From positions 533,760 to 597,759 of the forward strand of contig PSQN01000001.1 of the NCBI GenBank assembly GCA_002989075.1: 64,000 nucleotides of DNA, given 5' to 3'. The notes below the pieces were generated by a model, which was not told the DNA's origin, made no database searches, and saw only the letters and a list, made by a program, of their open reading frames with translations. This DNA comes from Arthonia radiata. Its lineage: Eukaryota > Ascomycota > Arthoniomycetes > Arthoniales > Arthoniaceae. This document shows, piece by piece, positions 1 through 28,142 of this stretch (within the stretch, counting starts at the first letter, position 1; every line of letters starts with the position of its first letter). The position numbers and the translations under genes are program-made.

Positions 1-1
1 C

Positions 2-1124: not shown

Positions 1125-1168
1125 AGAGTTAGATTAGTAGAGTTAGATTAGTAGAGTTAGATTAGTAG
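1125..1168. repeat. 14-bp tandem repeat, about 3 copies
   Basis: The unit AGTTAGATTAGTAG is repeated head to tail three times. It lies in degraded AT-rich DNA with no gene nearby and is probably a replication-slippage product. Confidence 0.8.
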
Positions 1169-1679
1169 TAAAAGTCTAGATAAGTTTTTAGCTATAGTAG
1201 TAGACTATTTCTTCTTCTTAGTATAAGAGATAGAGTAATTAGTAACATTAGATATTATGGTAAGGTAGTTTAGGAAATAATATAGTCTCTAGTATTAAAG
1301 TAGGAGTTAATAGATATAGTAGCTTTTAGAGAGAAGTAAAATAAGATATTAGCTTACTAGTAGATTAAGATATTATTTTTAATTTTTAATAGAATAACAG
1401 ATAATTTTACTAGTAGTTCTTAGATAAGCTATTAAGTATAGGTTGAACTAAGAAAAAGGTAAGTCTTTATAATAATAAAATAAGTAAAATTAGAGTAAAA
1501 TTAGATAGTACTAAAGGCTTAGAATTATAAAGACTATAGAATAAAAACTATTAAAAGGATTTAATTAAAGGCTTATATATATTATTAGTATATTAAATTA
1601 GTTCTAATCTAAGGTTTGATTCTAACCTAGTTGAGATTAGCTCTATATTTAATCTAAACTAAATCCAAACTAGGGTTCT

Positions 1680-1710
1680 AGTTTAGATTAGAATTAATCT
1701 AGATTATAAT
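1680..1710 (+). repeat. Inverted-repeat partner of 12,089-12,119
   Basis: The 31 bases here are the near-perfect reverse complement of 12,089-12,119. A shorter related stretch, sharing TAATCTAGATTATAAT, lies at 12,695-12,720. These could be terminal repeats of degraded non-autonomous DNA transposons, but no target duplications were identified. Confidence 0.5.
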
Positions 1711-2879
1711 ACTATATTTTCTAAAAAATAATTTTATAGATCTATATTTGTACTATATTATATATAAAAACTAGAGTAGCTTAGCTACTCTATATAATTA
1801 AATACTTAGATTAATATATCTAAGCTTTTTTTATTACATTAGTAATACTAGTATAATAGTATTTAAATAATTCTAATAACTATTTTATAGTATGTCTAAT
1901 TATTTATAACTAAAAACATATATATTAGCTAACTTAGCTTATATTTTAGTCCATTTAAGTTCTAATAGAATAGTCTAGAGTATAATTAGCTACTTCTAGT
2001 ATTTTATTCTATTTTTAATAGATACTAGACTCTTCTAGAATATTAACTAGTAGCTTAATTTATAAGAATTATTTTAGCTACTAGCTATATTACTAAATTA
2101 AGCTATTTTTTAATTTAATTCCTTTCTAGTATCTATAAGAAATAAGTAGTTTTCCCTTAATAGTAGATTCTACTTAGTAAATAGACCTATACAAGAAATA
2201 TAGTTAGCTTGATTTATAGTCTAATAAGTTATATAGTACTATTAAAGTCTTATTATACTATTAATATAAGAGCTAAAGAACCTTTTAATAAGGTAAATTT
2301 AGCTAATATATTATATCAAGTTTTAAGCCTCTTTATATACCTCTAGTAGCTCCTTTTAGTATTAATAAGTAAGATATATATTAGTATATAGTATAGAAGC
2401 TATTTTATTCATATATTCTAGAGTAGTGTTAACTTATTTAGCTTCTATTTCCTTAATTTATTTAATAGTTAGCTAAGTAGCAAGTATATTATTTAATTTA
2501 AAACCAGTTTTAGGGCTAGACTCTCTATTTAGATACCTTTTAACTTAATTAGTAAGTTAAACTAGAACTAGATAAGATAAGAATTTAAACTTATATACTA
2601 GCTGAAAGTAGTCTAAATTAATCTAAGTTTAATCTAAGTTTAATTTAGATTTAAATCTAGATAAGAGTTAGAAGTTAGAACTATATTAAAAAGATAGAAA
2701 TTTTTCTTTAGAGAGATTAAAATAGCCTACTATATAGATAGAATATAAATTAGATTACTAGATAGATTACTAATAGATAATTAACTAAATTACTAATATA
2801 TTACTAATACTATGTTATTAATAAGTATTAGTAAGAATAAAAATTAGATTACTAAAAAATTTGTAAGCTACTTATAAAT

Positions 2880-3386
2880 TGTTAAAAAGGTGCAGGGAAG
2901 AAGAAGGATACTACTACAAAGAGTAGGAAGACGAGACCAGCTTGAGACTGGTACAATACTTAAGCTTAATATAGGTACAATACTTAGTAGCAAGGAGAAG
3001 CTATTATTATATTGTCTGTCTTATTAGCTAGAATCCTCTAGAGAGATCCTAGCTTATATATCTAAGTTTAGCGGTTCGTATAAGACTTACTAGATATCTG
3101 TTCTTTTAATAGGGGCTAGATAACTTATAACTTACCGCATAAGACAGTAATTCTGTCTATCTAAAACTGTTAGTCTTTAAGTCTATTCTATATTGTCTTA
3201 GACTATAGGTCAGCTGTCTAGAACGGGTCGTACAATGCTTCTTTTTGTCCTAGACCCGGGCTACTAGGCCCGACTCTTTAGATAAAAGGCTTGTTCTATT
3301 TTAGGCCGAGACAGCTGGTAGAACTTATTCGATACTCCGGGTCTCTAGGGGTTCCGGCTAACTAGCTAGTTAGTTAATTTTTAACA
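2880..3386 (-). repeat. 3' LTR of the Copia element
   Basis: This direct repeat partners 7784-8291, has TG...CA ends and adjoins the target duplication at 2875-2879. It is more AT-rich than its partner; the differences look like transitions, as RIP would produce, so LTR divergence is not a usable clock here. Confidence 0.9.
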
Positions 3387-6300: not shown

Positions 6301-7783
6301 TTTTTAAGCTGTTTTAAGGCGTTTTCGCCTATATATCCTATTTATTAATATTAAAGGTCAGTTTTCGAAGAAATAGTATAGAGAGATCGGACTATATTAA
6401 TAGTCTAAGCTTCTATTACTATTAGGCCGTCAATATACCGTCCCTCGGTAATTAGTTGTCCGGCTTAATTAACTTTTAGCTTATTTTAGCTAAAAGTTAC
6501 CTTACCTCCCCTCTTTCTAAGCTTATCGAAGCTTAGGAGGTTAATTCTAAATTCCTTAACAAATAAAACTTCGTTTAGAACAATTGTTTTGTTCTTAAAG
6601 AACAGTTTTACTTTATTTGTTTAGAAGGCTCGGATTAACTTCCCTCCTCCTCAACAAATAATCCGGTTAGTTGGCCGAATATCTGTTAGAAGGTCAATAT
6701 TCGAGCAAATATAGCTTATTAAGCCTGTATCGAGGATCTAAGAATTAGTAGAGTGATTAACTCTGTTTAGTAATACTATAAAGCATTGTTCTTCTTGTAG
6801 GTTGGTACTATGTACAGAAAACATTAAAAAATTGGTGTTTTTGGAGCTTTTGTTAGAATTTAGCCGGAGGTTTGGGTATTTTTTCTAACAAGTTGCCGGT
6901 TTATGCCCCTTTTTGTTGCAAAAGGGGCATTTTTCTTGGTTTTTACTTAGAGATTTTATTTTTTCTCCGGTCCTTTGCATCGAATTATTGTCTATTGCAG
7001 TAAAAACCTTTTCTACTGGGGTACTACCGCAAATTTAGCGAGACTCGTCTATAAGTTAACTAAATAAGTTCTGTAGACTTATATTGCTAGTCGTTTGCCA
7101 GTAGCTTTAGCTAATAATAGCCACCGTATGCTCGTATTTAGAGGTTAGATTGTAAAGGACGTAGGCAGCTATCACCTTGTTGGGTAGTGCTAGTCCTCGG
7201 GTTGCCAAATCGTCCGTTAATTGTCTAATTTTAGCAAGGTAAAGCTCAAGGTTTTTTACCTTACTAAGTATAGTGCTAAAGAGCTCCTTGCAAATTAGAA
7301 ACTCAGAACTAAACCCTTTTAATTTATATAACCTTTTTAAGCTATCTTAAAGCTCTAGAGAGTTATAGATCCCCTTTATTTAAATAAGGAGACCGTCCTC
7401 TAGATTTAGTTGAATAAGGGCTGCTGCCCTTGTTGACTGTTCCTGGCGGCTAGCTTCGGTAATATCTCTAGCTAAATAGCCGGAAAAGGGGATTATAACG
7501 TTACTGTAGCCCTTTTTAGTTAAAAGTGCCTCTATTCAAATCGACCAAATATCCCAATTAGTCGAGCCCCTGAGTTTAGGAATCTTATGAGAGGAGTTCA
7601 TAGCCAAATATATAGTCGAAGATTTCCGAAAAAAAGGAAATTCTGTTCTGATAGTTAAATTGGGCTAAAAATTTAGAGTCGATTGGTAATAGGATCGTTC
7701 GGAGGTGCCGATAGGTGTCGTAGGGGAAATATTTTCTAAAAAGGAAATTCAAAAGGAATTGGTGCTAATCCGGGCTTATAACC

Positions 7784-8291
7784 TGTTAAAAAGGGTGCAG
7801 AGAAGAAGAAGGATACTACTACAAAGAGTAGGAAGACGAGACCAGCTTGAGACTGGTACAATACTTAGGCTTAATATAGGTACAATACTTAGTAGCAAGG
7901 AGAAGCTGTTATTATGTTGTCTGTCTTGTTAGCTAAAATCCTCTAGAGAAATCCTAGCTTATATATTTAAGTTTAGCGGCCCATATAGGACTTACTAGAT
8001 ATCTGTTCTTTTAATAGAGGCTAGATAACCTATAACTTACCGCACAAGACGGTAATTCTGTCTATCTAAAACTGTTAGTCTCTAAGTCTATTCTATGTTG
8101 TCTTAGACTACAGGCCAGCTGTCTAGAACGGGTTGTGCAATGCTCCTTTTTGTCCTAGACCCGGGCTACTAGGCCCGACCCTTTAGGTAAAAGGCTTGTT
8201 CTATTCTAGGCCGAGACAGCTGGTAGGACTTGTCCGATACTCCAGGTCCCTGGGGGTTCCGGCTAACCAGCTAGTTGGTTAATTTCTAACA
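7784..8291 (-). repeat. 5' LTR of the Copia element
   Basis: This direct repeat partners 2880-3386, begins TGTT and ends AACA on the plus strand, and is followed immediately by the second TAAAT target copy at 8292-8296. Confidence 0.9.
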
Positions 8292-8296
8292 TAAAT

Positions 8297-9049
8297 CTAA
8301 ATTTAAACTAGACTCTAAAAATTATTTATTTTAAGCTAATCTTTCTGAATAGAGACTAGCTAAACATAGATATAGATAGAAAAATATCAGCTGTATTTAA
8401 TAAAGTTTTTCTACTAAGCTTTAGCTAATAAACTTATCTAAATAGCAAGGTAATTTTTAAAGTTAGTAACATACTTACTAATAAGAGTTACTTTATAATT
8501 AGAATATTAGAATATATTAGTAATTAAATAAACATTAGTCTAAATACTTTTATAAATAGATATAATTAGTAATTTCCACTATAATTAGATATTTTACATT
8601 TTTAAAATTAGTAAGCTACTTTAAGATCTAGAGCAGTTTTAGGCTAATTTTAAGTCTTATTCTAAATTAATTTCAAAGTAGTTCTTAGTTATATTAGGTC
8701 TCTTTCTTCTCTTCTAAAATCAGTTTCTATTTCTATTACTAATCTTAATTTCTAATCTAGAATTACTAATCTTAATTTTTAATATAGATTACTAAGCTTA
8801 ATTTCTAATATAGATTACTAATCTAAATTATTAATTTAAGATTTCAAACATATATATCTACTATCCTTCCTACTTAAAATATAAAATATTTTAGTATCTT
8901 ATATTAGTCTACTATATTATCTAGTCTATTACTACTACTATACCTATCTAGTTATTTACTACTATATTTAGTAATTCACTACTATATCTTAAGACAATTC
9001 TACTAGCTCTAGCTTTATTCTACTAAATTCTAAATCTGAATTCTTTATA
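8297..9049. other. AT-rich degraded sequence between the Copia and hAT coding remains
   Basis: The composition matches 508-2874. No motif is recognised. It may include the 5' non-coding part of the hAT element; terminal inverted repeats were not identified. Confidence 0.6.
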
Positions 9050-11480
9050 TTTTAGAATAATTATCTTAAAAAGATACTATAGCCTCCTTCTATAACTTTA
9101 GAAGTAACTAGAACAGTTGAAATTTAGTATGTATTATTTGAAACTAGTACTAATAAGCCTTATATAAAAAACTATATACTAGCTTAGTATAAAACTAGTA
9201 ACAGAAATTTAATAAAATATTTAAAATAATACTATTCTAATTATTCTAGAAATAAAGAAGAAAAGAATATAAAAATAATAGAAGATACTAGAACTAAAGC
9301 TTTAGAAGATCTAAAAGGTAAGTTTATATCTAGTACTAATTTTAATATAAATAGTATACTAATTAACGTTCATTAGAAAACTCTAATACTAGTAAAAATC
9401 CTATAAGAGACTTATCTTTTTAACCTAGCTTTATAAAAAAATAGATATTAAAAAGCCTCTACCTAGCTATAGAGAGGGTATTATTAATTTAATAATTAAA
9501 TATAATCTCTCTTTAATGATACTAAATAGTAATTCTTTTATAGAATTACTAGCTCTAGTGAAGCTATAAGTTAAACTCTATTTATCTATTTATTTTTGTT
9601 CTACTTTTCTAGTAATTTACTGATAATACTAAGCTCTATAGTATATTTTATTATATTATTAGTGAATTCATATAAACTAACTAATATAGAAGATTACCAA
9701 TCATTAGCTCCTATATTATTTAAAAGAATCTAAAATTGATTCATAACTACTATAAGAATCTAGTTTAACTAGAACTAGAATAATACAAGACTAAAAATAG
9801 TCTATTTAGTCTAACTTTAGATCTAGACCTCTAGTAATTCCATTAAATATCTAGAAATTACTATATACTATATTAATAGTACTTTTACCGTTAAAAATAC
9901 TATTCTAGGCCTAGTACTACTAAAATAGATATATAAAGGTAATTATCTTTATAGTATACTAATAAAAATACTAAAGGACATTGAAATAGAGTCTTCTATA
10001 TCTAGGTAAGCCAGTATATTTATATTCTATAAATATAAGAAGATATAACTAACTAAGATCTAGTGTTACTCGAAATAATACTAAGAATATAAATAAATTT
10101 ATAAGACTTTATTAAGAGTCTAGCTATTTAAAAGATCGTAATGTTTAACTAGTTAATATGAGATACTTAGTATATATTAGAAACTTAGTAGTTTAGGCTT
10201 TTTTATGAGAGCTAGCTATAGAGTTTAATATACGTAAGTTACTAGAAACTTAACTAGATTTAATAGATACAGTAGAAATAATTATACTACTATAATAAAT
10301 TAAACTTATATAAATATAGAAGCTACTCCTACTACTAGTTATAAGCTACTACTAGCTAAAGTTTAAAAATTAATTAATAAAATTTAATAGAGTCTATAAA
10401 TAAAATAAGACTTAAAAAAATAAGCTAAAAATCTAGATATAAGCGAGTGTATCTTATATCTAGATATTAAAACTAGATAGAATTTAACTATTAAGATACT
10501 AATATTCTTTAATAATTTATAAAGCCCTATAAGAAACCTAATTACTAAGGTCAATAGCTTCTAACCTTACTATATTAGTACTATAAAATTTAATCTTTTA
10601 GCTAATATAGTAAAAATACTTAGAATATTTAAAAAAGTAACAATAAAGCTATAAGGTAGTAGCTATCCTTCCTTATATTATAGTCTACTATACTATACTA
10701 TATTTAAAAAAGAGCTAGAAGATACTAGAAATAATATTAATAATCTTATTATTAAAATAGTATTAAAATCTAGTCTAAAAAAGCTAACAAATATTAATTT
10801 AAAAAAAGATAAACTACTATTTATAATGATATTAGATCCTAGATATAAATTAAATATATTTAAATATCTAGATTATAAAGTTAATAAGAAAAAAATAATT
10901 AAAAATAAGTTTATTACTAAATGTAATAGATAGTTTACTAGATATATCTAATTTAGATACAAAAACTAATTATATATCTAGTATAAAAGACTTTCTAACT
11001 AGATTTAGTAATTATATTATTAGATCTAATAGAATAGTAGATACTACTAGTATTACTAAATCTAATTTGGATAATGTTAGTAGTAATAATAGGTAGTATA
11101 TATAGTAATAAAGAGGATAATAATAATAATATTAAATATATCAATTATTTTTAAAGCTCTAAGGTATTAAGATTAGTAAGTCAATATAATTCATTCCAGA
11201 TTCTAGATCTGATACCAATTATAATGTAGACTAATTCTCTAGAATATTAGTAACTAAATAAAATTAAATATCCTATTCTAGCCTACTTAGTATTAACACA
11301 TCTAGCTATACTAGCTACTTTAGCTTCTGTAGAATCTAAATTCTCTTAGAGCTTAAATATAGTTACTTAAAAAAAGAAATTAACTAGCTAAGGATAGTAT
11401 AAGTATTATACTATATTTAAAAAATTACGCTTTCTATTTAGATAAGGATAATAATACTAAAAGTTTAGCTAAAAAGAAAG
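9050..11480 (+). mobile_element. hAT-family DNA transposon relic (transposase remains)
   Basis: Several plus-strand segments read as hAT transposase. Near 9,120-9,260 a BED-like zinc-finger stretch includes KTSNRNLIKYLK. Near 9,490-9,560 a core-start stretch resembles INLIIKYNLSLMILN. Near 10,820-10,880 is ILDPRYKLNIFKYL, the hAT catalytic-core hallmark. Near 11,270-11,360 is the C-terminal dimerisation block YPILAYLVLTHLAILATLAS followed by a VESKFS stretch. The segments are in different frames and interrupted by many stops, often where tryptophan or glutamine is expected, consistent with RIP. The order is correct for a single transposase, so this is one decayed copy. Element ends and the 8-bp target duplication were not located. 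Confidence 0.75.
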
Positions 11481-13690
11481 TAAAAAGAATAGCTTAATCT
11501 AATTATAATAGCTCTAAGCTAATTAATAGCCTAAATACTAGCCTAATTAAGCCTAGTTCTAATTGAAAAGATAATCTAGAAGAAGATCTAGAAGAATAAA
11601 GTTTAGAAGATTAATTAAATATATTAGTTCTTAGCCCTAATCTTGATAGTAATAGTAGTAAAAATAACTTAGCTACCAAAACTAGATATTCTAATAAATC
11701 TATTAAATTCAGATCTAGTAAGACTAGATCTAATAAAACTAGATCTAGATCTACTAGTCTAGTTTTAGATACTATAGAATATACTACTAATAATCATTAA
11801 ACTTAGTCTTCTATAGATAAGCTAGGTTAATTTTATTTTACTAGATAACATAGCTAGAATTATCTAAATTATCTAAATAAACTTAAGTTTTTTCTAAATT
11901 ATAATCAAGTAGTATATATTAGCTTAGAATACTAGAATAGATATAAGATACTTAAATAAAGCTTACATTTAAATCTTTAGATTTATTTTAGTATACAAGT
12001 TTTAAATATTAAGCTTTAGAACCTTTAGTACTAGTATAAAGTTAAACATGGTATTTAAATATAACATAAAATTATTCTATTTTTAGAAATTATAATCTAG
12101 ATTAATCTTAATCTAAACTAAAAACCGGATCGATAGATTAGCTCTATATATAATCTAAACTAAACTAAACTAAACTAGATTGATCTAGATTGATCTAGAT
12201 TAGTAGAAACAATATAATATAGTATACTAGTCTAAGCTATAGCTATAATTAATGTTTTCAAATAGTTAAGTATATTATTATATTTTATTCTCTCTATAAT
12301 AAAACTAGACTTTTTAAGAAGTACTAAATAATGTATATTAATTAGCTATTTGTAGTTTATATACTAGTAGCTTAAGCTACCTACTAGTTTATTATAAGTA
12401 GTATACTAAATTAATTATATACTATATATAAAATTGAATATAAATTAATATAAAATTAGCGGCCCTTTTAGAGGCTAGAAACTTAAGAGTAAATAGAATA
12501 AAAGATAAAGAAGAAGAAGATTTTTAGCTAAAGATAGTATTAGGAAGAAAAGTAGTAAATCAAAAGTAGATAAGTTATATATATAAGTATAATTAAATTA
12601 TATATATAACAGTAGGGCGTATTAAGGGTTTTCTAGTTGAAGGTTAGTTATAATCTAGATAAGAATATTTAGAGTATTAACCTACCATATTTAATTCTAG
12701 TTCTAATCTAGATTATAATATATAGTAAGTAAAGATAATATAGCTATAGTACTAATACTAGATACTAAAATAGATCTAGATATACTAGTATAGTTCTAGA
12801 TACTATAGAGCAAAGTAGTATATAGTATAGTACTACTAAGTAATAAATATAATCTTCTATAAATAACCTAGCTAATATAATTTTATTCTACTATATAAAG
12901 AATAAAGCTAAATATATATAAATAAAGATACTTGAACTTATATACTATACTATATTAGTAGTAAATATAAGCTCCATATACAAAGTAATCAATTCTACTT
13001 TCAACTTTAGATATTTAGTAAATCATTCTTAGGGTATAAATCTAGAGTCTTTTCAGTAGTAGAGCTAGATTTAATATAATATCTAAATAAGAATCTTAAT
13101 AAACTAATAAATTAGTTCTATATAGACTCTAATCTAAATTTAGGCTAAAAAAGATATTCTAGATTAGTTTCAGATTACTAGAATCAACTAAGTATACTAG
13201 ACTAGTAACTTAATACTCTAGATTACTAAATAGTCTTAAGTACTACTTTAGATTTCTAGTCTTAGTTATTACTCTAGATTAATGATATTTACTAATAATA
13301 TTTACTAAAAATATAAATTATTCATAATTATTCATAATCTTAGTTTCTAAATAAGTAATCTAGTTTAATAGTTTAATTAAACATTTCTTTAGTAATCTAA
13401 TATATGTAAGTCGTTTTTTAGTAATATAGATAAACAATCTACCTAATCCAATAGCCTTAAATAGAACTACTAAAAGTAATTATATTAGCTCTAAGATTAT
13501 CTTAGTAGTAGTATATAGAAATACTATACTATAGTAGTATTTGTAGCTCTAAAATATATCTTATAATTTAGATAATATCTCTTTATCTAATAAGTATTAT
13601 AGTAATACTACTGATAGTATCTTTATTTCTTCTAAAAGCTTATTTGAATACTATATTTATACTTGGGAGATAAATAGAACCTTAGCCTTA
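11481..13690. other. AT-rich RIP-degraded sequence to the island edge
   Basis: No coding motif is seen. It contains short oligomer runs (CTAAACTAAA-type near 12,150-12,180, and GATCTAGATT repeats just after) and inverted-repeat motifs at 12,089-12,119 and 12,695-12,720. Base composition switches abruptly to ordinary gene-like GC between about 13,680 and 13,780. Confidence 0.75.
12089..12119 (-). repeat. Inverted-repeat partner of 1,680-1,710
   Basis: Near-perfect reverse complement of 1,680-1,710. It is followed by a stretch (about 12,136-12,165) that also matches about 1,636-1,665 directly, so the two places share a composite repeat. The identity of the parent element is unknown. Confidence 0.5.
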
Positions 13691-14761: not shown

Positions 14762-15362
14762 TTTTGGAAGATTCCGATTCGGTATGGGATGCAAAGCAGA
14801 ATGCTGAACGATGATCTGCGTTGTGAGTCCACGTTGGAGCCTTCTTATACAAACACTATTATCTGTGCTACCTCACTGCATCCGTGCGACGCCCTGAGAG
14901 CTAGCCCGCCGAAGGTGCGGGTCCGTTTTATCTACCGCCGGTGGGCTCTTGTCCGCAGCGATCTAGTACACCATGTATTTACAGTGTGACCTTAGGATAC
15001 ATTGTCGTTTTCTTTGGGCAGAAAGGTATCTTTTCTCGCAACGGAAATGTGGCGACTTGATATGACCATGGTGAGGAAGAAGCACCCGCCGATTGAATGG
15101 TCGACGAAAACCGCGCTTGCCTCTATATCATCACACCATCTTGCCTCATCAATGTGAGACTCTGTGTCCTCGATATTGGACCCCCTACATCAATATTGCG
15201 GACTAGGCTCCGCCCTTCGGGTTAGCGTGCGGACGATTACCCAATCAACATGGGTCCGCACCCAGCCGATGACAAATGTGCGCCCCCATACTACGGTACG
15301 CCTCTTGACTTCCGCCGCGGACAAGATGAGAGGAAAACGCCAAGGGAACATGTCCTTTGACG
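14762..15362. promoter_or_regulatory. Shared divergent promoter with four TGCGGAC sites
   Basis: This non-coding interval separates the SDR and the Zn2Cys6 gene. The 7-mer TGCGGAC occurs exactly four times: 15,197-15,203 and 15,228-15,234 on plus, 14,951-14,957 and 15,254-15,260 on minus. The 15,228 and 15,254 copies form an inverted pair with a 19-bp spacer. CGG is the usual half-site of Zn2Cys6 proteins, so these are candidate operators for the adjacent regulator. That link is inference. Confidence 0.5.
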
Positions 15363-16643
15363 ATGCCGACGCACGTGGAATCGAACGCCTGCAGCGCCTG
15401 TGCGAGGTCGAAGCGGAAATGCGGTCGGCAGATGCCGTCGTGCGCACGATGCGCGGATAGGGGCAGGTCCTGCGTCTATCCTTCGTCGAGAGGCAGAGCA
15501 GCTTCCTCTCCTCGGCCATTGCTTTCCGATGCGTTCGGAGGCTCGGCGCCGCGAGTGGAGGATGGACTGCTTGCTGAGGTCGTGGGCAACATCCCCCGCA
15601 CCGCAGACCTGGCCCTTGCAGACGACCTTATGTTGGACCTGGCGTTCCCACTTATAGACAGTGACATCAATGCCACGTCGTCTCCCATTCGAAATACCAG
15701 CACACCAGCAATCAGGCCCGACTGGTTCCTTGCGCCCGAGACGTGGACAATATCCCACAGAGCGGACACCTCGGCCGCTGGACTAGTTGGCAAGGCGACC
15801 ACGAAAACGTACTTGGCGGTGCTGCAGTCTTGGTTCGAACGCTGGGTCACCACCGGCAGCAATCCTTTCATCCATCCCTGTCTGTACAGTGCAAGCTTTC
15901 CAGCGTGCGTGCAGGTCGCGTATGCCACGCTGGCTAGCTATATCTACCGAACACCCGCAAACACGGACACCGTCCTCCAAATTGTGGAGGACAGGTCGAA
16001 CGAGTTACTCCGGGAGAATGGAGCTGTTCGGGATAGGGTTGGCGCGGAGGAGTGGGCCGATAGAGGGGAGCAAGATGTTGACCTGTTCGCGCAGCTAACA
16101 AGGCTGCACGCGCTCATGGTCTACCAGATTATCGGCCTCTTCGATGGCGATGTCCGCTCTCGTCACGTCGCCGAAGGCCACGTTGCCGTCCAGAATAGCT
16201 GGATCGCCAAGCTTTTTCGCTCGGCCGCAAAGGCATTGTCAAACACCCACGCCGTCGCCGCGCATCTTGTCGGCTGTCTGCCAACGCCGTCCACCTACTC
16301 GCAGCAACAGTGGTATTTGTGGATCCTCTCGGAGAGCATCCGCCGCACCTGGCTCGTCGCCGCCAGCATATCCTGCGTCTTTTCCGCGCTGCAGCAGCGC
16401 TGGTCGACTTGCCCCGGCGGCGTCATGTTCACGAACCGCAGCGGCCTTTGGGACGCCGCGAGCGCCACCGAGTGGGAGAAGCAGTGCTTGGGAAGGAATG
16501 TGGCGTTCCTGCAGCGCTTCGAATGCGCCAGACTCTTCGATGACGCGGATCCCGCGGACATTGACGAGTTCGGCATGGCCATGTTGGACATTACTTTCAA
16601 CGCTGAGTTGTTACAAAAGTGGAGGGACAGAAGCGGTGGCTGA
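15363..16643 (+). CDS. Zn2Cys6 (C6) fungal transcription factor
   Basis: This single-exon gene encodes 426 residues. The N-terminus holds the binuclear zinc cluster with Cys at 10, 13, 20, 27, 30 and 37 (C-x2-C-x6-C-x6-C-x2-C-x6-C) and basic residues KRK between the second and third Cys. The rest is an aromatic- and leucine-rich activation/regulatory region of the type seen in short C6 factors, without a clear coiled coil. The ATG at 15363 is the first in frame; the frame stays open a little upstream but has no ATG there. The length is typical of pathway-specific regulators. It is divergent from the SDR and is probably its regulator, by position only. Confidence 0.9.
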   Translation: MPTHVESNACSACARSKRKCGRQMPSCARCADRGRSCVYPSSRGRAASSPRPLLSDAFGGSAPRVEDGLLAEVVGNIPRTADLALADDLMLDLAFPLIDSDINATSSPIRNTSTPAIRPDWFLAPETWTISHRADTSAAGLVGKATTKTYLAVLQSWFERWVTTGSNPFIHPCLYSASFPACVQVAYATLASYIYRTPANTDTVLQIVEDRSNELLRENGAVRDRVGAEEWADRGEQDVDLFAQLTRLHALMVYQIIGLFDGDVRSRHVAEGHVAVQNSWIAKLFRSAAKALSNTHAVAAHLVGCLPTPSTYSQQQWYLWILSESIRRTWLVAASISCVFSALQQRWSTCPGGVMFTNRSGLWDAASATEWEKQCLGRNVAFLQRFECARLFDDADPADIDEFGMAMLDITFNAELLQKWRDRSGG

Positions 16644-17056: not shown

Positions 17057-18831
17057 CTAGTGCGGCAGCACATACAGACCGATGGGGCAGGGGTTGTAGT
17101 CCTGGAAGAACTCCAGCGCCAGTGACCCGGTACCCTTGACACCATAGCCAGTGGTCTGGCCAGCGGCACAGGCACCGCTCTTTACGGTGAAGCTCTGGCC
17201 AGCAAAGGCATGCCACGAGCCGACGAGAGTCACGTGAGGCGCCGGTCCAGGCGCGTTGGCAGTGATCCCCTTCTCGAGCTGAGAGAACTGCAGGTCGCCG
17301 CTGCCCGAGAGGTTGAAAAAGCTTGTCTGGAGCTGGTTCTGGGTCGGGAGGGTAATGACGAGATCGCAAGTCTTGCCAGCGTAAGACTGGGGGATGTCAA
17401 AGTTGAAGTAAGCAGTCTCGGAGGCGCTCATGGTGGCGTTGTACGTTGGCCCGGAGGTCTTGCCGCTGGCATCGCTGTCGACGATGAGGTGTGGGTACTG
17501 GTAATCCTTACCTTCGAGAGTCAGTGGGCACGCGGATGCGGGGTGAGTCGCTGACGGCCTGCTGGTAGGGACTGATGTGGTCGCGTTACGGTAGATGGGC
17601 GCTCCAAGAGACACGGAGGGAGCTGGAGTGTACTGAGGCTGGCCAAGGGACACGGAGGGAGCGGGAGTGTACTGAGGCTGACCGGCAGAGACCGAAGGGC
17701 CGGACGGGATCGGCGTGTATGATGGTTGATCAACAGCGACCGTTACGGTAGAGGTGATGGTGACGGTGCTCGCAGGCGGGCAGACATTGCCGCTAGTCTG
17801 GACACTTAGTGCAGTTGTGACACTGTCCTGGACCACAATGGGAGTGGCACTGCCGCTCTGCTGCGCAGTGGTAGCCGATGGGGCCGCCGGACCAGGAGTG
17901 GGGTGAGAGGCTGGCTGCAAGGTCTTCAAGGTCAAGATGCCGCTTTCAGATACGCAAGAGGCGCTCCCTGGGTAGCTATCAGCTGGGTTACAGGCAAAGC
18001 CAGACGAAGAGTGTGCCGAGCTGGGTTGTAGGGGCGAGTATGTCGCCGAAGGAGTGGTGGACGCCGAATAAGACAAGGTCAAAGAGCCGCCTTTCGAGGT
18101 GCAGACAGCGTTGGGGTAGCTATGAGCTGGATTGCATGCATACGTCGATGAAGATGCGGACACAGAAGAGGTGGTGAGCGTCAAGGAACCGCTCACGGAG
18201 GTGCAAGTCACGCCCTGAGAACGTTCGAGTCAGCGAGAAAGTCCATGATCAAATTGCTACTCATCTCACGACCCTAGCAGTCCGCATATCATTGTATAGA
18301 ATGGAAGGACTCACGGCTGGGTAAGAGTGCGCCGGGTTGCAGGCATAGCCAGTCGACGAAGCGCCAGGGGCGGACGTGACGGAAGTCTTGGGGACTAGAG
18401 CGCCTCCGACAGTCGCGCAGTCCTCGCGTGCCGGATTGCAGGCAAATGTAGATGAGGAGGAGGGAACAGAGGTCGCAGGTGCTTTGAGCGTCAACGAGCC
18501 CGATTCAGAGACACAACTGGATCCGCCGGGATAGGAGTGCTGCATTGATCGCGTCAGTAGATTGAGTTCAATGATGCGTTTGCGGATGACCTACCGCTGG
18601 ATTGCAGGCGTAAGTGGAAGACGACGTTGAGGCGGAGGTCATAGACGTCTCAAGTGTCAAAGAGTCTCCTTCCGACACACAGCTTTGACCGTTCGGATAA
18701 GAGTGCGCTGGGTTGCAGGCATATGTTGCTGAAGAAGAGGGTGCTGGAGTAGTGGAAGCTCCGTACGCGGCTTGAGGTATGGCGTTGACTGCCACAAGTC
18801 CATAGGCAACGAGAGGAAGTATATAGCCCAT
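17057..18831 (-). CDS. Secreted But2-domain protein with CNPA repeats (3 exons)
   Basis: Model: exons 18831-18595, 18539-18315 and 18214-17057 (introns 55 and 100 bp) give 539 residues. It starts with a signal peptide (MGYILPLVAYGLVAVNA). Six copies of a ~35-45-residue module follow, each with YACNPAHSYP then C-[ST]-x-x-GSLTL; the third copy is degenerate. Next come a Ser/Thr/Pro-rich linker with QPQYTPAPSVSLG repeats and a C-terminal But2 domain of about 160 residues (YPHLIV, FNFDIP, YAGKTCDLV, FFQDYNPCPIGLY). The But2 domain is widespread in secreted or wall-associated fungal proteins. Both introns fall inside repeat modules, one after CNPA and one after HSYPA. It is likely a cell-wall or extracellular protein; no enzymatic role is indicated. 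Confidence 0.85.
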
Positions 18832-20136: not shown

Positions 20137-21413
20137 TCACAACTTCGACTTCACCTTCTCACCGTTGATGCGTCTACCTAGCTCATCGAATCGCACGACT
20201 TCACCGCTCTTCAAACTGTCCTGCAGCGCCTCACCAATAATCAACGCATCCACCGCTCCTTGGAAGTCAAACGGCAGCTGGCCATCTGTCAAGCACGCTT
20301 CCGTGAACTCGTTCGCCTCGGTCACGAACGCCTCACTGAAGCGTCCATAGTATGTCTGCGGAATCTCACGTCGCAAACCATCGCTCTGAGCGATCTCCAC
20401 GAGGTTGGCTTGCGGTTGAGCATTGACGGTGAGTTTACCATTGGTGCCGATTATTTCGGTCTGATCATGCTGACCATGGGGGAACGTGCGGGTCGAATAG
20501 ACGTATGCCATCTTCCCGTTCCAGAACTGTCGCCATTGGCCTCGGGTTTCATTTATGGGAAGCAGGGGATGTGGAACATACTTCGATCATACCCATACCG
20601 TTGTCCACATCACCCCACTGCTTCATCTCAGGGTGCAGGGCAGTGATGCCGATAGCATAGCAGCTCTTGACTATGCTATCCTTGCCGAAGAACCACAGCG
20701 CCAGGTCAATGTCATGAATATTGGCATCTACAAAGATGCCTCCACTGGACTTGCTGTAGCCGATGAAGTAGCCGTCTGGTCGCGTGCGATCGCCAGTCTG
20801 CGAGCGGACTATGCAGGCACGGCCAATGTCGCCGCTTGAAACACGCTCGTAAGCATCGCGGTAGGAAGCATCGAAGCGGCGAGAGAAGCCGCATAGTACT
20901 TTGAGATGCGGCTTGCGCTTTGCGGCGTCGATGACTGATTGAGACTGCGCCGGACATGTTAGACTACTAGCATGCTGATGGCATGCCTATATGTAATAAG
21001 ATGATGGCAATGCGCTGAACGTACAATGTCGACGCTGGTGCTGATTGGCTTCTCACACAGCACGTGCAAGTTGGCTTCGATGGCTTTTACCGTCTGCTCG
21101 GCATGCACTGTGGTGACAGTAGCAATGCAGACGGCTTCGAGCCCCTCGTGCTTGAGCATCTCATCGTAGTCTCTGTAGAGAGTCACGCCGTACGGCTCGA
21201 GCTCTTTGCGTCCCCATGCAAGCTCTTTCTCGTCTGGTGTGAAAGCTGCAACTAGATTGGCGCGAGGAGTTTTTGAGAGAAAATGCAGAGCATGCCGAGC
21301 CTACACGGCCTCAGCAACTGTCAGTTTATAGTATTGAGAATTTGTAGCTCTTTACGTACGCCCATGCGACCTAGACCGGAGACGGCTACGTTGAGCTTGC
21401 GAATAGTTGCCAT
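20137..21413 (-). CDS. Gfo/Idh/MocA-family dehydrogenase, inositol-2-dehydrogenase-like (4 exons)
   Basis: Model: exons 21413-21360, 21300-21025, 20944-20582 and 20526-20137 (introns 59, 80 and 55 bp) give 360 residues. The N-terminal Rossmann fold has GLGRMG (13-18), the conserved EKPIS with catalytic Lys102, and GGIFVDANIHDIDLA in which D183 and H187 correspond to the Asp-x3-His pair of inositol dehydrogenases. The C-terminal half has the family's beta-sheet domain. Members oxidise a sugar or inositol hydroxyl with NAD(P)+. Its place four genes from myo-inositol oxygenase favours an inositol or sugar-acid substrate, but scyllo-inositol, glucose and dimeric-sugar dehydrogenases share these motifs. 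It is in tandem, 513 bp downstream of the zinc dehydrogenase. Confidence 0.9.
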
Positions 21414-21926
21414 TGTGGCTGTGTGAAGTATCGAAATTGGACGTATACTTCGGCGCAACCTCGAGTACAACCAAATGCAATGTGAGAGTGCAATGAAGGT
21501 CTCGGTGGAGAATTTGAAAGAAGGCGTGGCTCCAGCTGGAACAGCAGTCTTTCCGTGCTCTGATCACGGAGGCTTTGTATCTCCGTCAGCGGCAAATATG
21601 TCTCTTGCCCAAGAGTGCTCAACAACAGTCCGTGAGGCTTGAGACACGCTGCAGTCCACCGCCGTATCTAAGCTTCTTGAGGCATGCGGGCGATGTTGTG
21701 GGTCAACTCCCACAAGTTTTTCGCGAGGGAGCTCGCGGGCCGGAAGAACATACTCCGGTGGTCCTCTGCGGCGACGACTCGAAGGCACTGTCCCGACCGA
21801 AGGTATGGGTATCCATTCCTGGCATTGACAGTGCTTGCCTCTGCCCGCGAGGAACGCTAAGAAAATGCTCCATGACACCTCTTTGCGGACAGACTTGCCT
21901 TTTCCAAGGCAATTGAATGGCGGGGA
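21414..21926. other. Intergenic between tandem dehydrogenase genes
   Basis: The interval contains the promoter of the Gfo/Idh gene. Short frames here lack family features and no gene is called. Confidence 0.6.
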
Positions 21927-23137
21927 TCAAGTAACAGCGTCACCGCTTGTATCTACAACCACCTTCAGCACAAGCCGGCCTTGATCTTCCTTGGTCTTGC
22001 CAGCCATCTGGAAAGCGTTTTCCACCTCGTCAAGACCCCGATACCTGTGCGTTACCAGCTTTGAGAAATCCGGTAGCCTCTCGTCATTCCGCGCCACCAC
22101 ATCGATGCACTCGGGATACGTGTTGGCATACCGGAAACTGCCAACAAGATCCACTTCGCGCAGTGCCGCAGCAGACACTGGCAGCGTGTATACCGGAGTG
22201 CCCATACCGACGAGGACGACTCGCCCACCGGCGCGCGTCGAATAGATGGCTGCTTGCGTGCACGACGGTACCCCAGTGCACTCGAATGTGGCGTCAACTT
22301 CTCCGAGGGGATCGCCGGTGATCCTCCGTTTCACGTTGCTGATGGATGTTGCGGTATCCCTGGCGATCTTTAAGTCCTCGTCGTCACCATTCCCACGCTT
22401 CATCGGCACTGTGAAGCTTGCGTCCGCGAATTTGTTTGTTACAGCGAAGTCGAGCCGCCCTTGATCGATGTCCGCTATCACCACCTCCTTTGCGCCGTTG
22501 ACCTTCGCCATCGCTGCCACAAGTAGACCAATAGCGCCTGCACCAAATACGAGCACAGTCGAGCCTTGTTTCAACTGCGCTCTCCTCGACGCGTGCATTG
22601 CAACACCCAATGGCTCGAGCAATGCTCCGACATCAAGGGAGACGTCCTCAGGCAGCTTGTGACACCACGCCGCCGGCGCGTTGATGCGATCTTGCAATGT
22701 GCCCTGATAGTGTGGCAAGCTCTTCGCTGATGCGCGGAAACGCATGCTTCTGCAAATATTGTACCTTCCTTCTTGACAATATGAGCATTTGCCGCATGGC
22801 TGCCCAACTTCAAGAGCAACCTTATCGCCAACACACAGGGTTTTTACACTCGTGCCGATCGCTACAACGATACCAGCCGACTCATGGCCCAGGCTCATTG
22901 GCTCTTGCATGACAATGTCCCCATTGCGACCGTGGTTGTAGTAATGAAGGTCCGACCCGCAGAGTCCGGTTGATCGGATTGAAATCTGGACCTCTTCCGG
23001 TGATGGGGGGTCAATGCTACGTGACTCCTATGTGAGTGTCAGCAATGCTATCGGATTTCGGGCGAGGTGTCATGTACAACTCGCAGGTCCCTGGCACCGT
23101 ACAATATCGAGGCGCGGATCTGCGCGGAGGAGGACAT
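21927..23137 (-). CDS. Zinc-dependent medium-chain dehydrogenase, sorbitol/idonate dehydrogenase type (2 exons)
   Basis: Model: exons 23137-23078 and 23027-21927 (intron 50 bp) give 386 residues. Catalytic-zinc ligands C43 (GLCGSD) and H68/E69 (GHE) are present, as are the structural-zinc cysteines C98, C101, C104 and C112. The Rossmann motif GAGAIG follows LLEPLGVAMHA. This is the polyol dehydrogenase branch (sorbitol, xylitol, L-arabinitol, L-idonate). In fungal glucuronate catabolism an enzyme of this type oxidises L-idonate to 5-keto-D-gluconate, so the neighbourhood makes that role attractive; sorbitol or xylitol dehydrogenase cannot be excluded. It is divergent from the KduD-like SDR. 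Confidence 0.9.
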
Positions 23138-24043
23138 GGCGTGCTGTAACGAGGTGAGTAGAAGGTGACGAGCTAGGAAAATTCACCAGCATCTACAACA
23201 AATGAGCAGCAGCGCAAGCTTTGAATAAGATGCGCTAAAAGGAGGGCGCCGCTGCGAAGTGAAATGGAGAAGAGTGACGGGTTTTGGCCTGTAGAGCTCG
23301 ACTACGCAAAAAGCCGCCGCATCGGTCAGACTGCATCCGAAATCTACTGATTTGCATGGGATATCGGAAGGTATATGTCGTTGCTAGCTGGGTTAGCTGA
23401 GCCGCCTGTCAGCCAGAGGCAAGTGCATGGTTGGTTGTTCGAGTGAATGCTCTGGCTGGAGAGGATCAAACGGGGCTCAAAAGTTGTTGAGCGTGCGAGG
23501 GTCAAAATACATGGCGCACAGCTTGCCTCCATATAACCGTCATGGTATGCTTTGAAACCAACGGTCATCACCCTTCCTCCTGTCTCTTCTCCGCCGTCGC
23601 TGTCTTTACTTTTCGCGTTTTTTGGGAATGTCAGACATCCATCACACTACCTGTGAGATCCCTCCGCGGAGTTGCAGTAAATCTAGTAGCAACATGGCAA
23701 GTGAGTATAAGAGAGCGACAGTAGCGCCGGGCAAACAGAGCCCGAGACAGCAATGGCCTGCTCACTAGGCGTAGAAGCTCGTGCTCCTGTACATTTACCT
23801 CACAAGACTGCTGTTTGACACCCATCATGCTTTGAACACTCGTAGCCTCCCTCAACTTCTCTAGCTTCTATCTATCTCATGGTCAGAATAATACCCGATC
23901 CGCAGCACTCCAGAGCAGCGCTTCAGAAGCTTGCACGTTAATAAATACTCGTGAACGCTGCTGCACCACCTCCAACCCGAGGAACATCTGCGTCCAGCAA
24001 CAGCACCCCGGATTGCATGCCCGAGGGCGCCTCCTCTCCCACC
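23138..24043. promoter_or_regulatory. Divergent promoter region of the zinc dehydrogenase and SDR genes
   Basis: About 900 bp separate the two start codons. No reading frame with family features and no strong repeat is seen. It probably contains both promoters. Confidence 0.5.
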
Positions 24044-24838
24044 ATGTCAACGTCCCTTCCTTCTCTCTTCTCACTCACTGGCCAGACCGCCCTAGTCACA
24101 GGCGGCACCCGCGGCATCGGCCAGTCCATGGCCGTCGCCCTCGCAGAAGCCGGCGCCGATATCATCCTTATTCAGCGTGACACCAGCAATACTACCACAT
24201 CAACTCTCATCACTAACCTCGGGCGCAAGTGCACGATCGTACCTGGCGACCTCTCCGACCGCACATCTGTCTCCGAGCTCATGCAGACAGTCCAACAGCA
24301 AACGAACAATACACCTATCCACATTCTCCTCAACTGCGCCGGCATCCAACGCCGGCATCCAAGCCACGAGTTTCCGCAAGACGACTGGGATGATGTGATT
24401 CAGACGAACCTCAGCACAGTCTTTACGCTCTGTCGAGACGTCGGTGCGCACATGCTAGCCCGTGAGCCGGACGCGGACGGTCGCCGCGGCTCCATCATCA
24501 ACATCGGCTCCCTGCTCTCTTTCCAAGGTGGCTTCACAGTCCCTGCTTACGCAGCAAGTAAGGGCGGCGTGGCGCAATTGACGAAAGCGCTGAGCAATGA
24601 GTGGGCGGGCAAGGGCATCAACGTTAATGCGATTGCACCGGGATATATCGCGACTGAGATGAACACGGCGCTTATGGAGGACAAGGCGCGGGCAGCGAGT
24701 ATTCTGGCGAGAATACCAGCGGGGCGGTGGGGCAGCCCTGAGGACTTTAATGGTGTTGTGGTGTGGTTGGCGAGTCGCGCGAGTGCGTATGTGAGTGGTG
24801 AAGTGGTGACGGTGGATGGCGGTTGGATGGGCAGGTGA
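24044..24838 (+). CDS. KduD-like short-chain dehydrogenase (keto-deoxy/keto-gluconate reductase type)
   Basis: This single-exon gene encodes 264 residues from the ATG in ACCATGT context; another in-frame ATG at 24,017 would add nine residues. It has TGGTRGIG (19-26), NCAGIQRR, Y169/K173 in [10 protein letters not shown] and the long signature [29 protein letters not shown] and [12 protein letters not shown] are shared with 2-dehydro-3-deoxygluconate 5-dehydrogenase (KduD) and 5-keto-D-gluconate reductases. In the fungal glucuronate route the last step, 5-keto-D-gluconate to D-gluconate, is carried out by an NADPH-dependent SDR, which would fit this neighbourhood. Substrate is inference. It is convergent with the aldo-keto reductase gene, 179 bp apart. 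Confidence 0.9.
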
Positions 24839-25017
24839 CGCGGTTCAACACTTGCGATGATGGTTGCGATTGAGCAGGTCACTTTCCAAGCAGAATGCCT
24901 AATGACGAAATGGGGACCGCGGATAGCGCAGCTTAGGAGATTATCATTAAGGATCTAAGTCGAGGATGCCCGTAAAATCGAAGGTTTTCCGGGGTATCCG
25001 CTCACTCGAAAGACCAT

Positions 25018-26016
25018 CTACGCTGCTGCTGGTATCGTCTCCTTCGGAAAGCCCAGATCCACGCCAAACGCAGGATAGACATACCGCTTGAAGCCCTGCT
25101 TCTTGTGAATGTCATTCAGCGCCGCCACATCCTCTGCTGTCAGTGTCGTCGAATCCATATTTTCGCCAATCCGGCTCAGAGTTACGCTCTTCGGTATTAC
25201 GCTGATGCCCCTCGAGATCTGATAGCTCAAAAGTACACATCCAGGCGTCACCTTGTACTTCTCCGCAACCTTAGTCACGGCTGGGTCCTTGAAGATCGGG
25301 CTACCCGTGCTGCCGAAGGGGCTGTATGCCGTCACATGGATGCCGTTTTTCGTGCAACAGTCGACGATCTCCTGCTGGGGCAGGTAGGGATGGTTTTCGA
25401 TTTGGTTGACAGCGGGCACGATCCGGACGGTGGGTAACAGCTCCTCCAGATTCTTCACTGAGTAATTGCAGACTCCGACTGACTTGGATTTCCCGGTCGA
25501 TATCAGTGCCTCAAGCTGCTTCCACGTCTTTGTATGATCCCAGCTTTTGTCGAGATCTCTGCTCCCGTCTGCGAGCTTCGGGATGAGTGGGTGTGAGCCT
25601 TTGGGGTTCATAGGTACCGGCCAGTGCATAAGGTAGAGATCCACGTAGTCTAAGCCGAGCTTGGAAAGAGACTCATCGAGGGCCTGCCCCACGCGCGAGT
25701 GGAAGGTGCACCAGAGTTTGGTGGTGATGAAGACGTCTTCTCGCTTGCACACACCATTGCTGAAGGCCGCCTTGAAAGCGGCGCCGACCTCTTCTTCGTT
25801 TTGGTACATGTACGCACAGTCGATGTGCCGATAACCGCATTTCAGAGCATGGAGGACGGCATTCTTGACTTCTCCGGGTGGTGACTGCCATGTCCCGAGC
25901 CCAAGGGCAGCTGGCACCAGTTAGCTCATGAGCATAGTAGGCGAGGAAGTGTGTCTGGTTGGAAGCTGCTTACGGATCGAATGTCCGCTGTTCAGCTTGA
26001 ATTGCTTGGTTGACAT
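25018..26016 (-). CDS. Aldo-keto reductase, glycerol dehydrogenase / uronate reductase-like (2 exons)
   Basis: Model: exons 26016-25974 and 25910-25018 (intron 63 bp, GCTAAC branch) give 311 residues. The full AKR tetrad is present: D45, Y50, K79, H110. PALGLGTWQS, DLYLMHWPV and GISVIPKSV place it in the fungal glycerol/glyceraldehyde/xylose reductase clade, with a C-terminal tail containing FGVDLGFPKE. NADPH use is expected from the family. Beside inositol oxygenase the plausible reaction is D-glucuronate to L-gulonate; glycerol or L-glyceraldehyde reduction is the main alternative. It is divergent from the inositol oxygenase gene across 1.14 kb that contains a 13-bp minisatellite. Confidence 0.9.
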
Positions 26017-27158
26017 CGTCTGCAAACAAACTGGTCAGTGTTGGTTTCGAGAGGCTTCCGATCGGCACATCTCTGAGATGCAAGGGCAACCTGGCAGCAA
26101 ACTCACTTGTGGTCTGCTATGTCTCGCTGTCTTGTCTCGCTGTCTTGTCTCGCTGTCTTGTCTCGCTGTCTTGTCTCGCTGTCTTGTCTCGCTGTCTTGT
26201 CTCGCTGTCTTGTCTCGCTGTCTTGTCTCGCTGTCTTGTCTCGCTGTCTTGTCTCGCTGTCTTGTCTCGCTGTCTTGTCTCGCTGTCTTGTCCCGAAGTC
26301 TGAGTAACAGTTATGACCAGAATGAAGATGAGGATGATCAAGGCCCGGTTGTCTGTGTCTGTGAACCTATGGTTCTCGAATGACGTTGGGAGGGCAGGCA
26401 TGACGGGTCAATGAGCAGCGAGTGAAAGGATGCCCCACGTCTTCTCAATCGTCTTCAGGTGAAAGAAGTGTAGAGACGAAAGTCCGTGGAGCTGAGCGGC
26501 GCAAGAGCTAGGAAAAATGTGTGTCCAGAAATGAGCTAACGCAGCAGGCCGCGTCGACTTGCATCTTTCTCTCGCTGCCTTAAAGCCAGTAGGAGCTCAT
26601 GTGGAGCCTTCTGCTTCCGTTGCAGCCAGTCGCCACTCGAGGAAGGCGCGATCGGATGTTCTTGCTTCCGCTGACGATGGTCTTCGCCGTCTCGGACAAA
26701 GCTAGGAAGCAAAGAAGATCCGTTGAGCGCGCTAGAGTTCTGCCTGCATCGGTATGACCCATGGTGGTCCAGCAAGGACCTCTTATATTTCTGCTGCGGG
26801 ACGAGTTACCACGACGGGCCTGCATTGCAACAGATGCGGGCAGCAGGGTTCCGTCATTGCTGGCGAGGCCTGCGTTGACTGCTAAGATGCGGCATTTGAA
26901 GAGGGAACAACAGACTGCACACGTGAAAAACGTATGCTGAAAAAGTGATGCGGTGCATCAATCTTGCGCCTTGCATACACTCATTTATACAATCTTTCTG
27001 GAAAGCTTGGTAACAGCTGGACTTTCATCCATCCTGAGCCGGCGTTGCGCAAGCTGCAAAAGTGCCTGAGTTTTATCTTCTCAGCTTACACGCTACTTTC
27101 TTCGCTGGGTTGACGAACTCTTTGACTGCGAGTGATACTTTCTATTACTTGCGTCATC
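26017..27158. promoter_or_regulatory. Divergent promoter region of the aldo-keto reductase and inositol oxygenase genes
   Basis: The region separates two start codons by 1,142 bp and holds the minisatellite at 26,119-26,290. No other gene is supported. Confidence 0.5.
26119..26290. repeat. 13-bp minisatellite, about 13 near-identical copies
   Basis: The unit TGTCTCGCTGTCT is repeated head to tail about 13 times without visible variation until the last unit. Because 13 is not a multiple of 3, all frames are open through it, giving spurious Ser/Leu/Cys-rich frames. It lies about 100-275 bp upstream of the aldo-keto reductase ATG, so copy number could affect that promoter. The purity implies recent or ongoing expansion. 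Confidence 0.95.
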
Positions 27159-28142
27159 ATGGCACTAGGTCCAATCTATGAGACCCCAAACATCAAGGAC
27201 AATTTCGACGACCGCCGAGATGGCCTGGCCCTCGAGGAAACCACAGACAATGTCGAACATGTCAACATCCTCAAAGCAGCTCTCAAACAGAAAGAAAGCA
27301 CCGCCACCGAGGAGGACAAGGATATCTATGCCCAGTCCGAGTTCGACGCCAACAAGGGCAAGGCCCAATTCCGCCAATACGAGGAGGCGTGCGACCGCGT
27401 GAAAAACTTCTACCGTGAGCAGCATGAGAAACAGACCGTTGCTTACAACTTGAAAGCGCGGAACGCCTTCAAGACGAGGACGAGAGCTCGGATGACCATC
27501 TGGCAAGCCATGGAGAAGCTCAATACTCTCATCGATGAGTCAGACCCCGACACGTCACTCTCCCAGATTGAGCATCTGCTTCAAGCGGCTGAGGCTATCC
27601 GGCGGGATGGCAAGCCTCGATGGATGCAGCTGACTGGGCTGATCCACGATCTGGGCAAGCTTCTCTTCTTCTATGAGGCTGAAGGTCAGTGGGATGTCGT
27701 TGGCGACACCTTCCCTGTCGGCTGCGCATTCGACCACCGCATCATTCTCCCCGACACATTCAAGAGCAACCCAGACTCACATGACCCAATCTACTCGACC
27801 AGGTATGGCATCTACTCACCTGGCTGCGGTCTCGACAACGTCATGCTGAGCTGGGGCCACGACGAGTACATGTACCACATCTGCAAGGAGCAGTCAACGC
27901 TACCACCAGAGGCACTTGCCATGATCAGGTATCACAGCTTCTACCCCTGGCACAGCGAAGGAGCGTACATGGACCTCTGCAATGACCATGACATGGACAT
28001 GCTGAAAGCTGTTCAAGCCTTCAGTCCGTATGACTTGTATTCGAAGAGCGACGACATGCCATCGGTAGAGGAGCTGAAGCCGTACTATCTGGGATTGATT
28101 GGGGAGTACTTTGGAAGTCCAGACACGATAATCCAATGGTGA
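27159..28142 (+). CDS. MIOX: myo-Inositol oxygenase
   Basis: This single-exon gene encodes 327 residues. It catalyses the O2-dependent ring cleavage of myo-inositol to D-glucuronate with a non-haem di-iron centre in the cytosol. All six iron ligands known from animal MIOX can be placed: H139 (SQIEH), H163/D164 (LIHDLGK), H234 (WGHDEY), H259 (RYHSFYPWH) and D292 (YDLYSK). Length and domain layout are normal, with an about 100-residue fungal N-terminal part. The ATG at 27159 (ATCATGG) is the first in frame. It anchors the run of sugar/sugar-acid oxidoreductases to its left, which could process the glucuronate it makes. Confidence 0.97.
   Translation: MALGPIYETPNIKDNFDDRRDGLALEETTDNVEHVNILKAALKQKESTATEEDKDIYAQSEFDANKGKAQFRQYEEACDRVKNFYREQHEKQTVAYNLKARNAFKTRTRARMTIWQAMEKLNTLIDESDPDTSLSQIEHLLQAAEAIRRDGKPRWMQLTGLIHDLGKLLFFYEAEGQWDVVGDTFPVGCAFDHRIILPDTFKSNPDSHDPIYSTRYGIYSPGCGLDNVMLSWGHDEYMYHICKEQSTLPPEALAMIRYHSFYPWHSEGAYMDLCNDHDMDMLKAVQAFSPYDLYSKSDDMPSVEELKPYYLGLIGEYFGSPDTIIQW

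Follow-up and report, generated by a model that had tools for sequence, protein, structure and literature searches.

A window of 64,000 nucleotides from Arthonia radiata contig PSQN01000001.1 (hereafter, the window) carries five intact oxidoreductase genes between positions 20137 and 28142 that probably make up a true catabolic set of this fungus, serving myo-inositol and/or D-glucuronate. The genes encode a Gfo/Idh/MocA oxidoreductase (Gfo/Idh), a zinc-dependent medium-chain dehydrogenase/reductase (MDR), a short-chain dehydrogenase/reductase (SDR), an aldo-keto reductase (AKR) and a myo-inositol oxygenase (MIOX). They resemble the genes of the known fungal D-glucuronate pathway and stand in a larger grouping with MIOX. 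The genome that holds the window comprises 33.5 Mb in 16 contigs.

Results

Predicted enzymes of the gene set

Gene models derived from the sequence are open from start to stop for all five genes, and each protein scores well above its own Pfam cut-off. None of ten additional small open reading frames (ORFs), five in the gaps and five flanking the set, matches a Pfam family, so the initial annotation's description of five consecutive oxidoreductase genes with no unrelated gene between them stands at Pfam sensitivity.

The MIOX protein matches PF05153 with 417 bits (cut-off 25) over 249 of 249 profile positions, and has 125 of 254 aligned residues in common with mouse MIOX. All six metal ligands are retained as H139, H163, D164, H234, H259 and D292; these we take to be numbered H98, H123, D124, H194, H220 and D253 in the mouse enzyme. 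The initial annotation had called this MIOX complete, and the full profile match and the six ligands bear that out. Profile and active site together support an enzyme that would cleave myo-inositol to D-glucuronate. It is the single match to this family across the genome. As for other fungal MIOX genes, the consulted text of a paper on the Aspergillus fumigatus inositol oxygenase (PMC6540932) does not mention gene order.

According to the literature sections consulted, the Aspergillus niger route converts D-glucuronate to L-gulonate, 2-keto-L-gulonate, L-idonate, 5-keto-D-gluconate and finally D-gluconate (PMC5814732, PMC5306355, PMC4870679, PMC6353982, PMC13158570). In the same sections, the 2-keto-L-gulonate reductases GluC and GluD are D-2-hydroxyacid dehydrogenases, gluD and gluE are neighbours, and the enzyme that takes L-gulonate to 2-keto-L-gulonate is stated to be unidentified in fungi, in papers of 2017, 2019 and 2026 (the last PMC13158570).

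The SDR and MDR could supply the last two steps of this route. The best NCBIfam model for the SDR is KduD (305 bits, under the cut-off of 339). A. niger GluF is described, in the sections consulted, as a 265-residue SDR earlier annotated as 2-deoxy-D-gluconate 3-dehydrogenase. The gluF primers and guide, which we translated, encode a start of MSAAVASLFSL and an end of GWMGR. The window SDR ends in GGWMGR, and both its start, read from the second Met, and its end fit the primers and guide in this comparison of the termini alone. We regard the SDR as a candidate GluF-like enzyme.

For the MDR, the best NCBIfam model is L-idonate 5-dehydrogenase (220 bits, under the cut-off of 469), and the closest proteins of known structure are ketose, sorbitol, xylitol and arabinitol dehydrogenases. 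The protein is 51% identical to a Neurospora crassa "sorbitol dehydrogenase" (P0196). The consulted part of PMC13158570 predicts two N. crassa GluE orthologs, one of them sodh-1, to which P0196 may or may not correspond. The MDR is the best candidate for GluE in the set. We note that two "Quercus suber" sorbitol dehydrogenases (P0121, P0128) rank among the fungal MDR relatives, which suggests fungal sequence in the Quercus suber record set.

Solved relatives of the AKR include aldose and aldehyde reductases, and at the family level the protein may be a glucuronate reductase. Assigning it to the 2-keto-L-gulonate step, by analogy with a grape "2-keto-L-gulonate aldo-keto reductase", was considered and dropped, because the consulted text of PMC6827314 gives the grape enzyme as in fact a D-2-hydroxyacid dehydrogenase.

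Linkage in other fungi

Linkage was judged from protein records, using merged gene models, locus tags and the size of the longest contig. The pathway reading draws its strongest support from the recurrent SDR-MDR pair. Merged SDR-MDR models are found in four further species, Tolypocladium paradoxum, Pyricularia oryzae, Pseudogymnoascus sp. VKM F-4518 and Aspergillus thermomutatus, which we take to represent Sordariomycetes, Leotiomycetes and Eurotiomycetes. A merged prediction and a true fusion are indistinguishable in such records, and either one implies that the SDR and MDR genes are adjacent. The merged models place the SDR before the MDR on one strand, whereas the two window genes are divergent. 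Additionally, among metagenome rows, an SDR and an MDR have equal longest-contig sizes in two cases (P0244/P0246 and P0250/P0253).

The MDR-Gfo/Idh pair was tallied by manual reading of the listed rows in the 28 species having both proteins among those listed; species with one row were not counted, and Phyllosticta capitalensis and Neoarthrinium moseri were omitted as their rows come from different assemblies or strains. In 12 of the 28, the two proteins occur as a merged model, under consecutive tags or on a single contig. The window Gfo/Idh has 82% identity to a protein of the arthoniomycete Coniocarpon cinnabarinum. This record (P0001, 538 residues) is a merged model in which residues 1-193 correspond to the MDR end (60% identity) and residues 195-535 to Gfo/Idh (82%), in the order and strand seen in the window. 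Consecutive tags occur in Pycnora praestabilis, Coniosporium apollinis, Bathelium mastoideum, Trypethelium subeluteriae and Neofusicoccum ribis. Equal longest-contig sizes, which could place both genes on the same contig but are no proof of adjacency, occur in Lepidopterella palustris, Saccharata proteae, Viridothelium virens, Phyllosticta citricarpa, Lineolata rhizophorae and Aplosporella prunicola. The 12 species include one arthoniomycete and one candelariomycete; the other ten are presumably Dothideomycetes.

For a four-part query, the best 120 of 2255 matches consist mainly of MDR rows and include a single MIOX row (P0355). No relative was found in a scan of viral contigs. The scan for bacterial relatives of Gfo/Idh yielded ten loci, of which nine are bacterial (27-35% identity) and one is fungal-looking. 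None of the nine shows a MIOX, SDR or AKR match, and four (L059, L060, L061, L066) show a weak MDR match in the flank. These bacterial loci were rejected as a functional guide, being too remote for assignment. The tenth locus (L058, NYXK01000143.1) is an intron-bearing contig filed under a deltaproteobacterial metagenome-assembled genome, where it is apparently fungal contamination; its Gfo/Idh gene is 52-64% identical over pieces. A fungal transcription-factor domain, PF11951, lies approximately 1.7 kb upstream of that gene. MIOX was not found when the metagenome-assembled genome containing L058 was searched, although the control queries gave no match there either.

The Gfo/Idh enzyme

The initial annotation had attributed inositol-dehydrogenase catalytic residues to Gfo/Idh, and Lys102, Asp183 and His187 are indeed present, as in IolG groups i-ii. 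Among the 120 best-listed relatives, on which all residue counts are based, Lys and Asp are found in 120 and His in 119. By sequence, the solved proteins closest to Gfo/Idh are the scyllo-inositol dehydrogenase of L. casei and the myo-inositol dehydrogenase of L. plantarum, and the same two enzymes are nearest to the predicted fold of one relative (P0002). These likenesses make it a serious, if not the favored, possibility that Gfo/Idh is an inositol dehydrogenase bringing scyllo- or another inositol to a form that MIOX can use, with the remaining steps as proposed below. Other features argue against this assignment. The substrate motifs of IolG group i, given in the consulted text of PMC9603128 as GF(M/N)RR(Y/F)D (motif III) and YGY (motif V), are not matched in the window protein, which has GFSRRFD at motif III and HGQ at motif V, the latter placed by alignment; the Ser in motif III and the Gln in place of the second Tyr of motif V are shared by 120 of 120 relatives. 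The score against the inositol 2-dehydrogenase model TIGR04380 is 259 bits and does not reach the curated cut-off of 355, in a library built for prokaryotes. The neighbor that is kept beside Gfo/Idh is the MDR. Finally, the product of a single dehydrogenase is a ketone, and its conversion to myo-inositol would take a second enzyme.

At the residue aligned with position 35, 92 of the relatives have Thr or Ser, 25 have Asp or Glu, and 3 have Cys or Ala. This position tilts the predicted cofactor preference towards NADP(H), though the L. casei scyllo-inositol enzyme also has Ser there.

L-gulonate is the other substrate considered, since L-gulonate and L-idonate differ at C2 only, and since L-gulonate oxidation is the only fungal pathway step lacking a gene while the kept neighbor of Gfo/Idh is the GluE candidate. 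It is rather unlikely, but worth stating, that Gfo/Idh is the missing fungal L-gulonate 2-dehydrogenase, producing 2-keto-L-gulonate, or even a C2 epimerase that converts L-gulonate to L-idonate with a bound cofactor. Were the epimerase proposal true, the set would cover the whole path between inositol and gluconate, and GluC and GluD would not be needed. The substrate of Gfo/Idh may be either an inositol isomer fed towards MIOX or L-gulonate.

Related genes elsewhere in the genome

The genome match lists, which are lower bounds, contain 48 rows for the SDR, 16 for the MDR and 17 for the AKR. By E-value, the next match is 31% identical for the SDR (short pieces reach 55%), 41% for the MDR and 49% for the AKR over residues 31-195 (one 32-residue piece reaches 53%). 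Gfo/Idh has one other match, with 25% identity over 100 residues. Clustering was assessed with 77 of the 97 listed matches; the other 20 are one remote row (C2:176779) and 19 exon pieces that accompany typed rows. Among the 77, at least three of these families fall within 12 kb at this locus only, and the sole other locus with more than one family is an SDR-AKR pair on contig C4.

D-2-hydroxyacid dehydrogenases (PF02826) account for ten genome match rows. Four candidates were checked: for one, the closest PDB entry is a glyoxylate reductase, and all four score below the NCBIfam cut-offs. A gluconokinase is present on contig C2. With PF02826 genes and a gluconokinase elsewhere, the route could be completed outside the set.

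Locus organization and surroundings

The features are collected in Table 1. The minus strand carries the MDR and then Gfo/Idh. The MDR and SDR genes are divergent, the SDR and AKR genes convergent, and the AKR and MIOX genes again divergent. The three introns of the four-exon Gfo/Idh gene are all GT-AG, and the single introns of the MDR and AKR genes have GT/AG ends.

Table 1. Coordinates of the gene set and nearby features, in window positions.
Feature	Position	Strand	Details
Zn2Cys6 transcription-factor ORF, possible regulator	15330..16640	+	Pfam match
But2-domain ORF	17060-18229	-	Pfam match
Gfo/Idh/MocA oxidoreductase	20137..21413	-	360 aa; exons 21413-21360, 21300-21025, 20944-20582, 20526-20137
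Zinc-dependent MDR, GluE (L-idonate 5-dehydrogenase) candidate	21927..23137	-	386 aa; exons 23137-23078, 23027-21927
MDR/SDR divergent intergenic region	23138..24016		879 bp; from gene models
KduD-like SDR, GluF (5-keto-D-gluconate reductase) candidate	24017..24838	+	273 aa; 264 aa from second Met
AKR	25018..26016	-	311 aa; exons 26016-25974, 25910-25018
AKR/MIOX divergent intergenic region	26017..27158		1142 bp; contains 13-bp tandem repeat
MIOX	27159..28142	+	327 aa; intronless

No 8-mer is common to all three intergenic regions, and the top 6-mers derive mostly from a 13-bp repeat. This perfect tandem repeat (13.3 copies, 26120-26292) lies within the shared AKR-MIOX promoter region. CGG/CCG pairs, which may be chance occurrences, are present in the intergenic regions, and the idea of a common promoter motif was set aside.

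The Zn2Cys6 ORF is located 3.5 kb beyond the Gfo/Idh end of the set, with the But2-domain ORF in between. Both sit between the gene set and an AT-rich block that occupies window positions 1-13500 (GC 0.21-0.37). The dinucleotide indices of the block are typical of repeat-induced point mutation: TpA/ApT is 1.5-1.7 versus 0.55-0.67 in the rest of the window, and (CA+TG)/(AC+GT) is 0.24-0.54 versus 1.2-1.3.

Discussion

We propose the following route. MIOX would convert myo-inositol to D-glucuronate, as its profile match and active site support, and the AKR may reduce D-glucuronate to L-gulonate. L-gulonate would then become L-idonate through a change at C2, which in A. niger proceeds via 2-keto-L-gulonate and a D-2-hydroxyacid dehydrogenase and would here depend on a gene elsewhere in the genome. 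The MDR may oxidize L-idonate to 5-keto-D-gluconate, and the SDR may reduce the latter to D-gluconate; likeness to GluE and GluF and the SDR-MDR linkage in other fungi point to both steps. The gluconokinase on another contig would pass D-gluconate into the pentose phosphate pathway. Gfo/Idh is considered part of the unit because it is kept beside the MDR in related fungi.

Several observations weigh against this proposal. The set has no gene of the GluC/GluD type; all ten PF02826 rows are on other contigs, and none is on that of the window. The initial annotation held that the A. niger route uses enzymes of the classes found here, a statement that fails for GluC and GluD. Its inositol-to-gluconate pathway survives in part, supported by the single MIOX, the GluF-like SDR, the GluE-candidate MDR and the linked pairs elsewhere, and lacking the GluC/GluD type. 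With this type missing and the L-gulonate-oxidizing enzyme unknown in fungi, the five genes amount to MIOX and at most three assigned steps. There is also no transporter gene within the set.

In the remaining 16 of the 28 species judged, the MDR and Gfo/Idh genes are scored as separate. Tags separate them in Dothideomycetes sp. NU459, Meristemomyces, Cosmosporella, Xylaria grammica, Neonectria magnoliae, Stylonectria and Scytalidium. In Rhizodiscina, Paramyrothecium, Xylaria sp. FL1777, Ustulina, Ilyonectria sp. MPI-CAGE-AT-0026, Lasallia, Halenospora, Xylaria curta and Fusarium verticillioides, the separation is judged by differing longest-contig size only, which is weak evidence because the recorded size is that of the longest contig in a 90% cluster. 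Judging by sequence identities of about 50%, several MDR rows of the species in which the genes are apart may be paralogs. The gene-order comparison with relatives that the initial annotation proposed supports the MDR-Gfo/Idh pair in 12 of these 28 species and the SDR-MDR pair in four further species. On the fungal-looking contig L058, none of the other four families is matched in 12.1 kb, only 2.8 kb of that upstream. Other partners are also seen. Gfo/Idh is merged with the PF11951 regulator domain in three Fusarium records (P0146, P0147, P0204) and with an MFS transporter domain in another (P0208). The MDR is merged with unrelated domains in P0137, P0151 and P0160 (JAB-type in Bipolaris and Stemphylium, a regulator in Cosmosporella). 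A regulator or transporter is possibly a recurrent neighbor of Gfo/Idh.

A competing explanation, which we judge unlikely but deserving of weight, is that the conserved unit is Gfo/Idh-MDR-SDR, acting on another polyol or sugar acid such as sorbitol, L-iditol or an aldonate, and that MIOX and the AKR are its neighbors in this lineage only. The linkage demonstrated in relatives is just that of MDR-Gfo/Idh and SDR-MDR, and the polyol and ketose dehydrogenases nearest to the MDR would suit such a unit. On the other hand, the single MIOX of the genome adjoins these very genes, and the SDR is GluF-like. That five oxidoreductases without common function are neighbors by chance is highly improbable: the SDR, MDR and AKR families are large in this genome, but among the listed matches three of the families come together nowhere else, and two of the gene pairs are seen again in other fungi.

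By linking MIOX with GluE- and GluF-like genes, a catabolic set of this kind would explain how fungi are able to live on inositol. Gfo/Idh, which several fungal classes retain next to the MDR, becomes a named candidate for the missing L-gulonate oxidation step. Among the matches listed, the titles and abstracts of open-licence papers appear to report no comparable fungal gene set.

Three known systems invite comparison. Bacterial inositol dehydrogenases (IolG and its kin) share the Gfo/Idh fold and the catalytic Lys, Asp and His, whereas the window enzyme has altered motifs III and V and is partnered by MIOX and idonate-type enzymes. In the animal inositol route (MIOX, glucuronate reductase, gulonate 3-dehydrogenase), the first two steps could correspond to the window MIOX and its aldehyde-reductase-like AKR, but the partner genes here point to idonate and gluconate rather than L-xylulose. 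The A. niger pathway (GaaA, GluC/GurA, GluD/GurB, GluE/IddA, GluF/KgrA) has possible counterparts in the GluF-like SDR and the GluE-candidate MDR, and the genome has a gluconokinase; the window set differs from it in being without the GluC/GluD type and in adding MIOX and Gfo/Idh.

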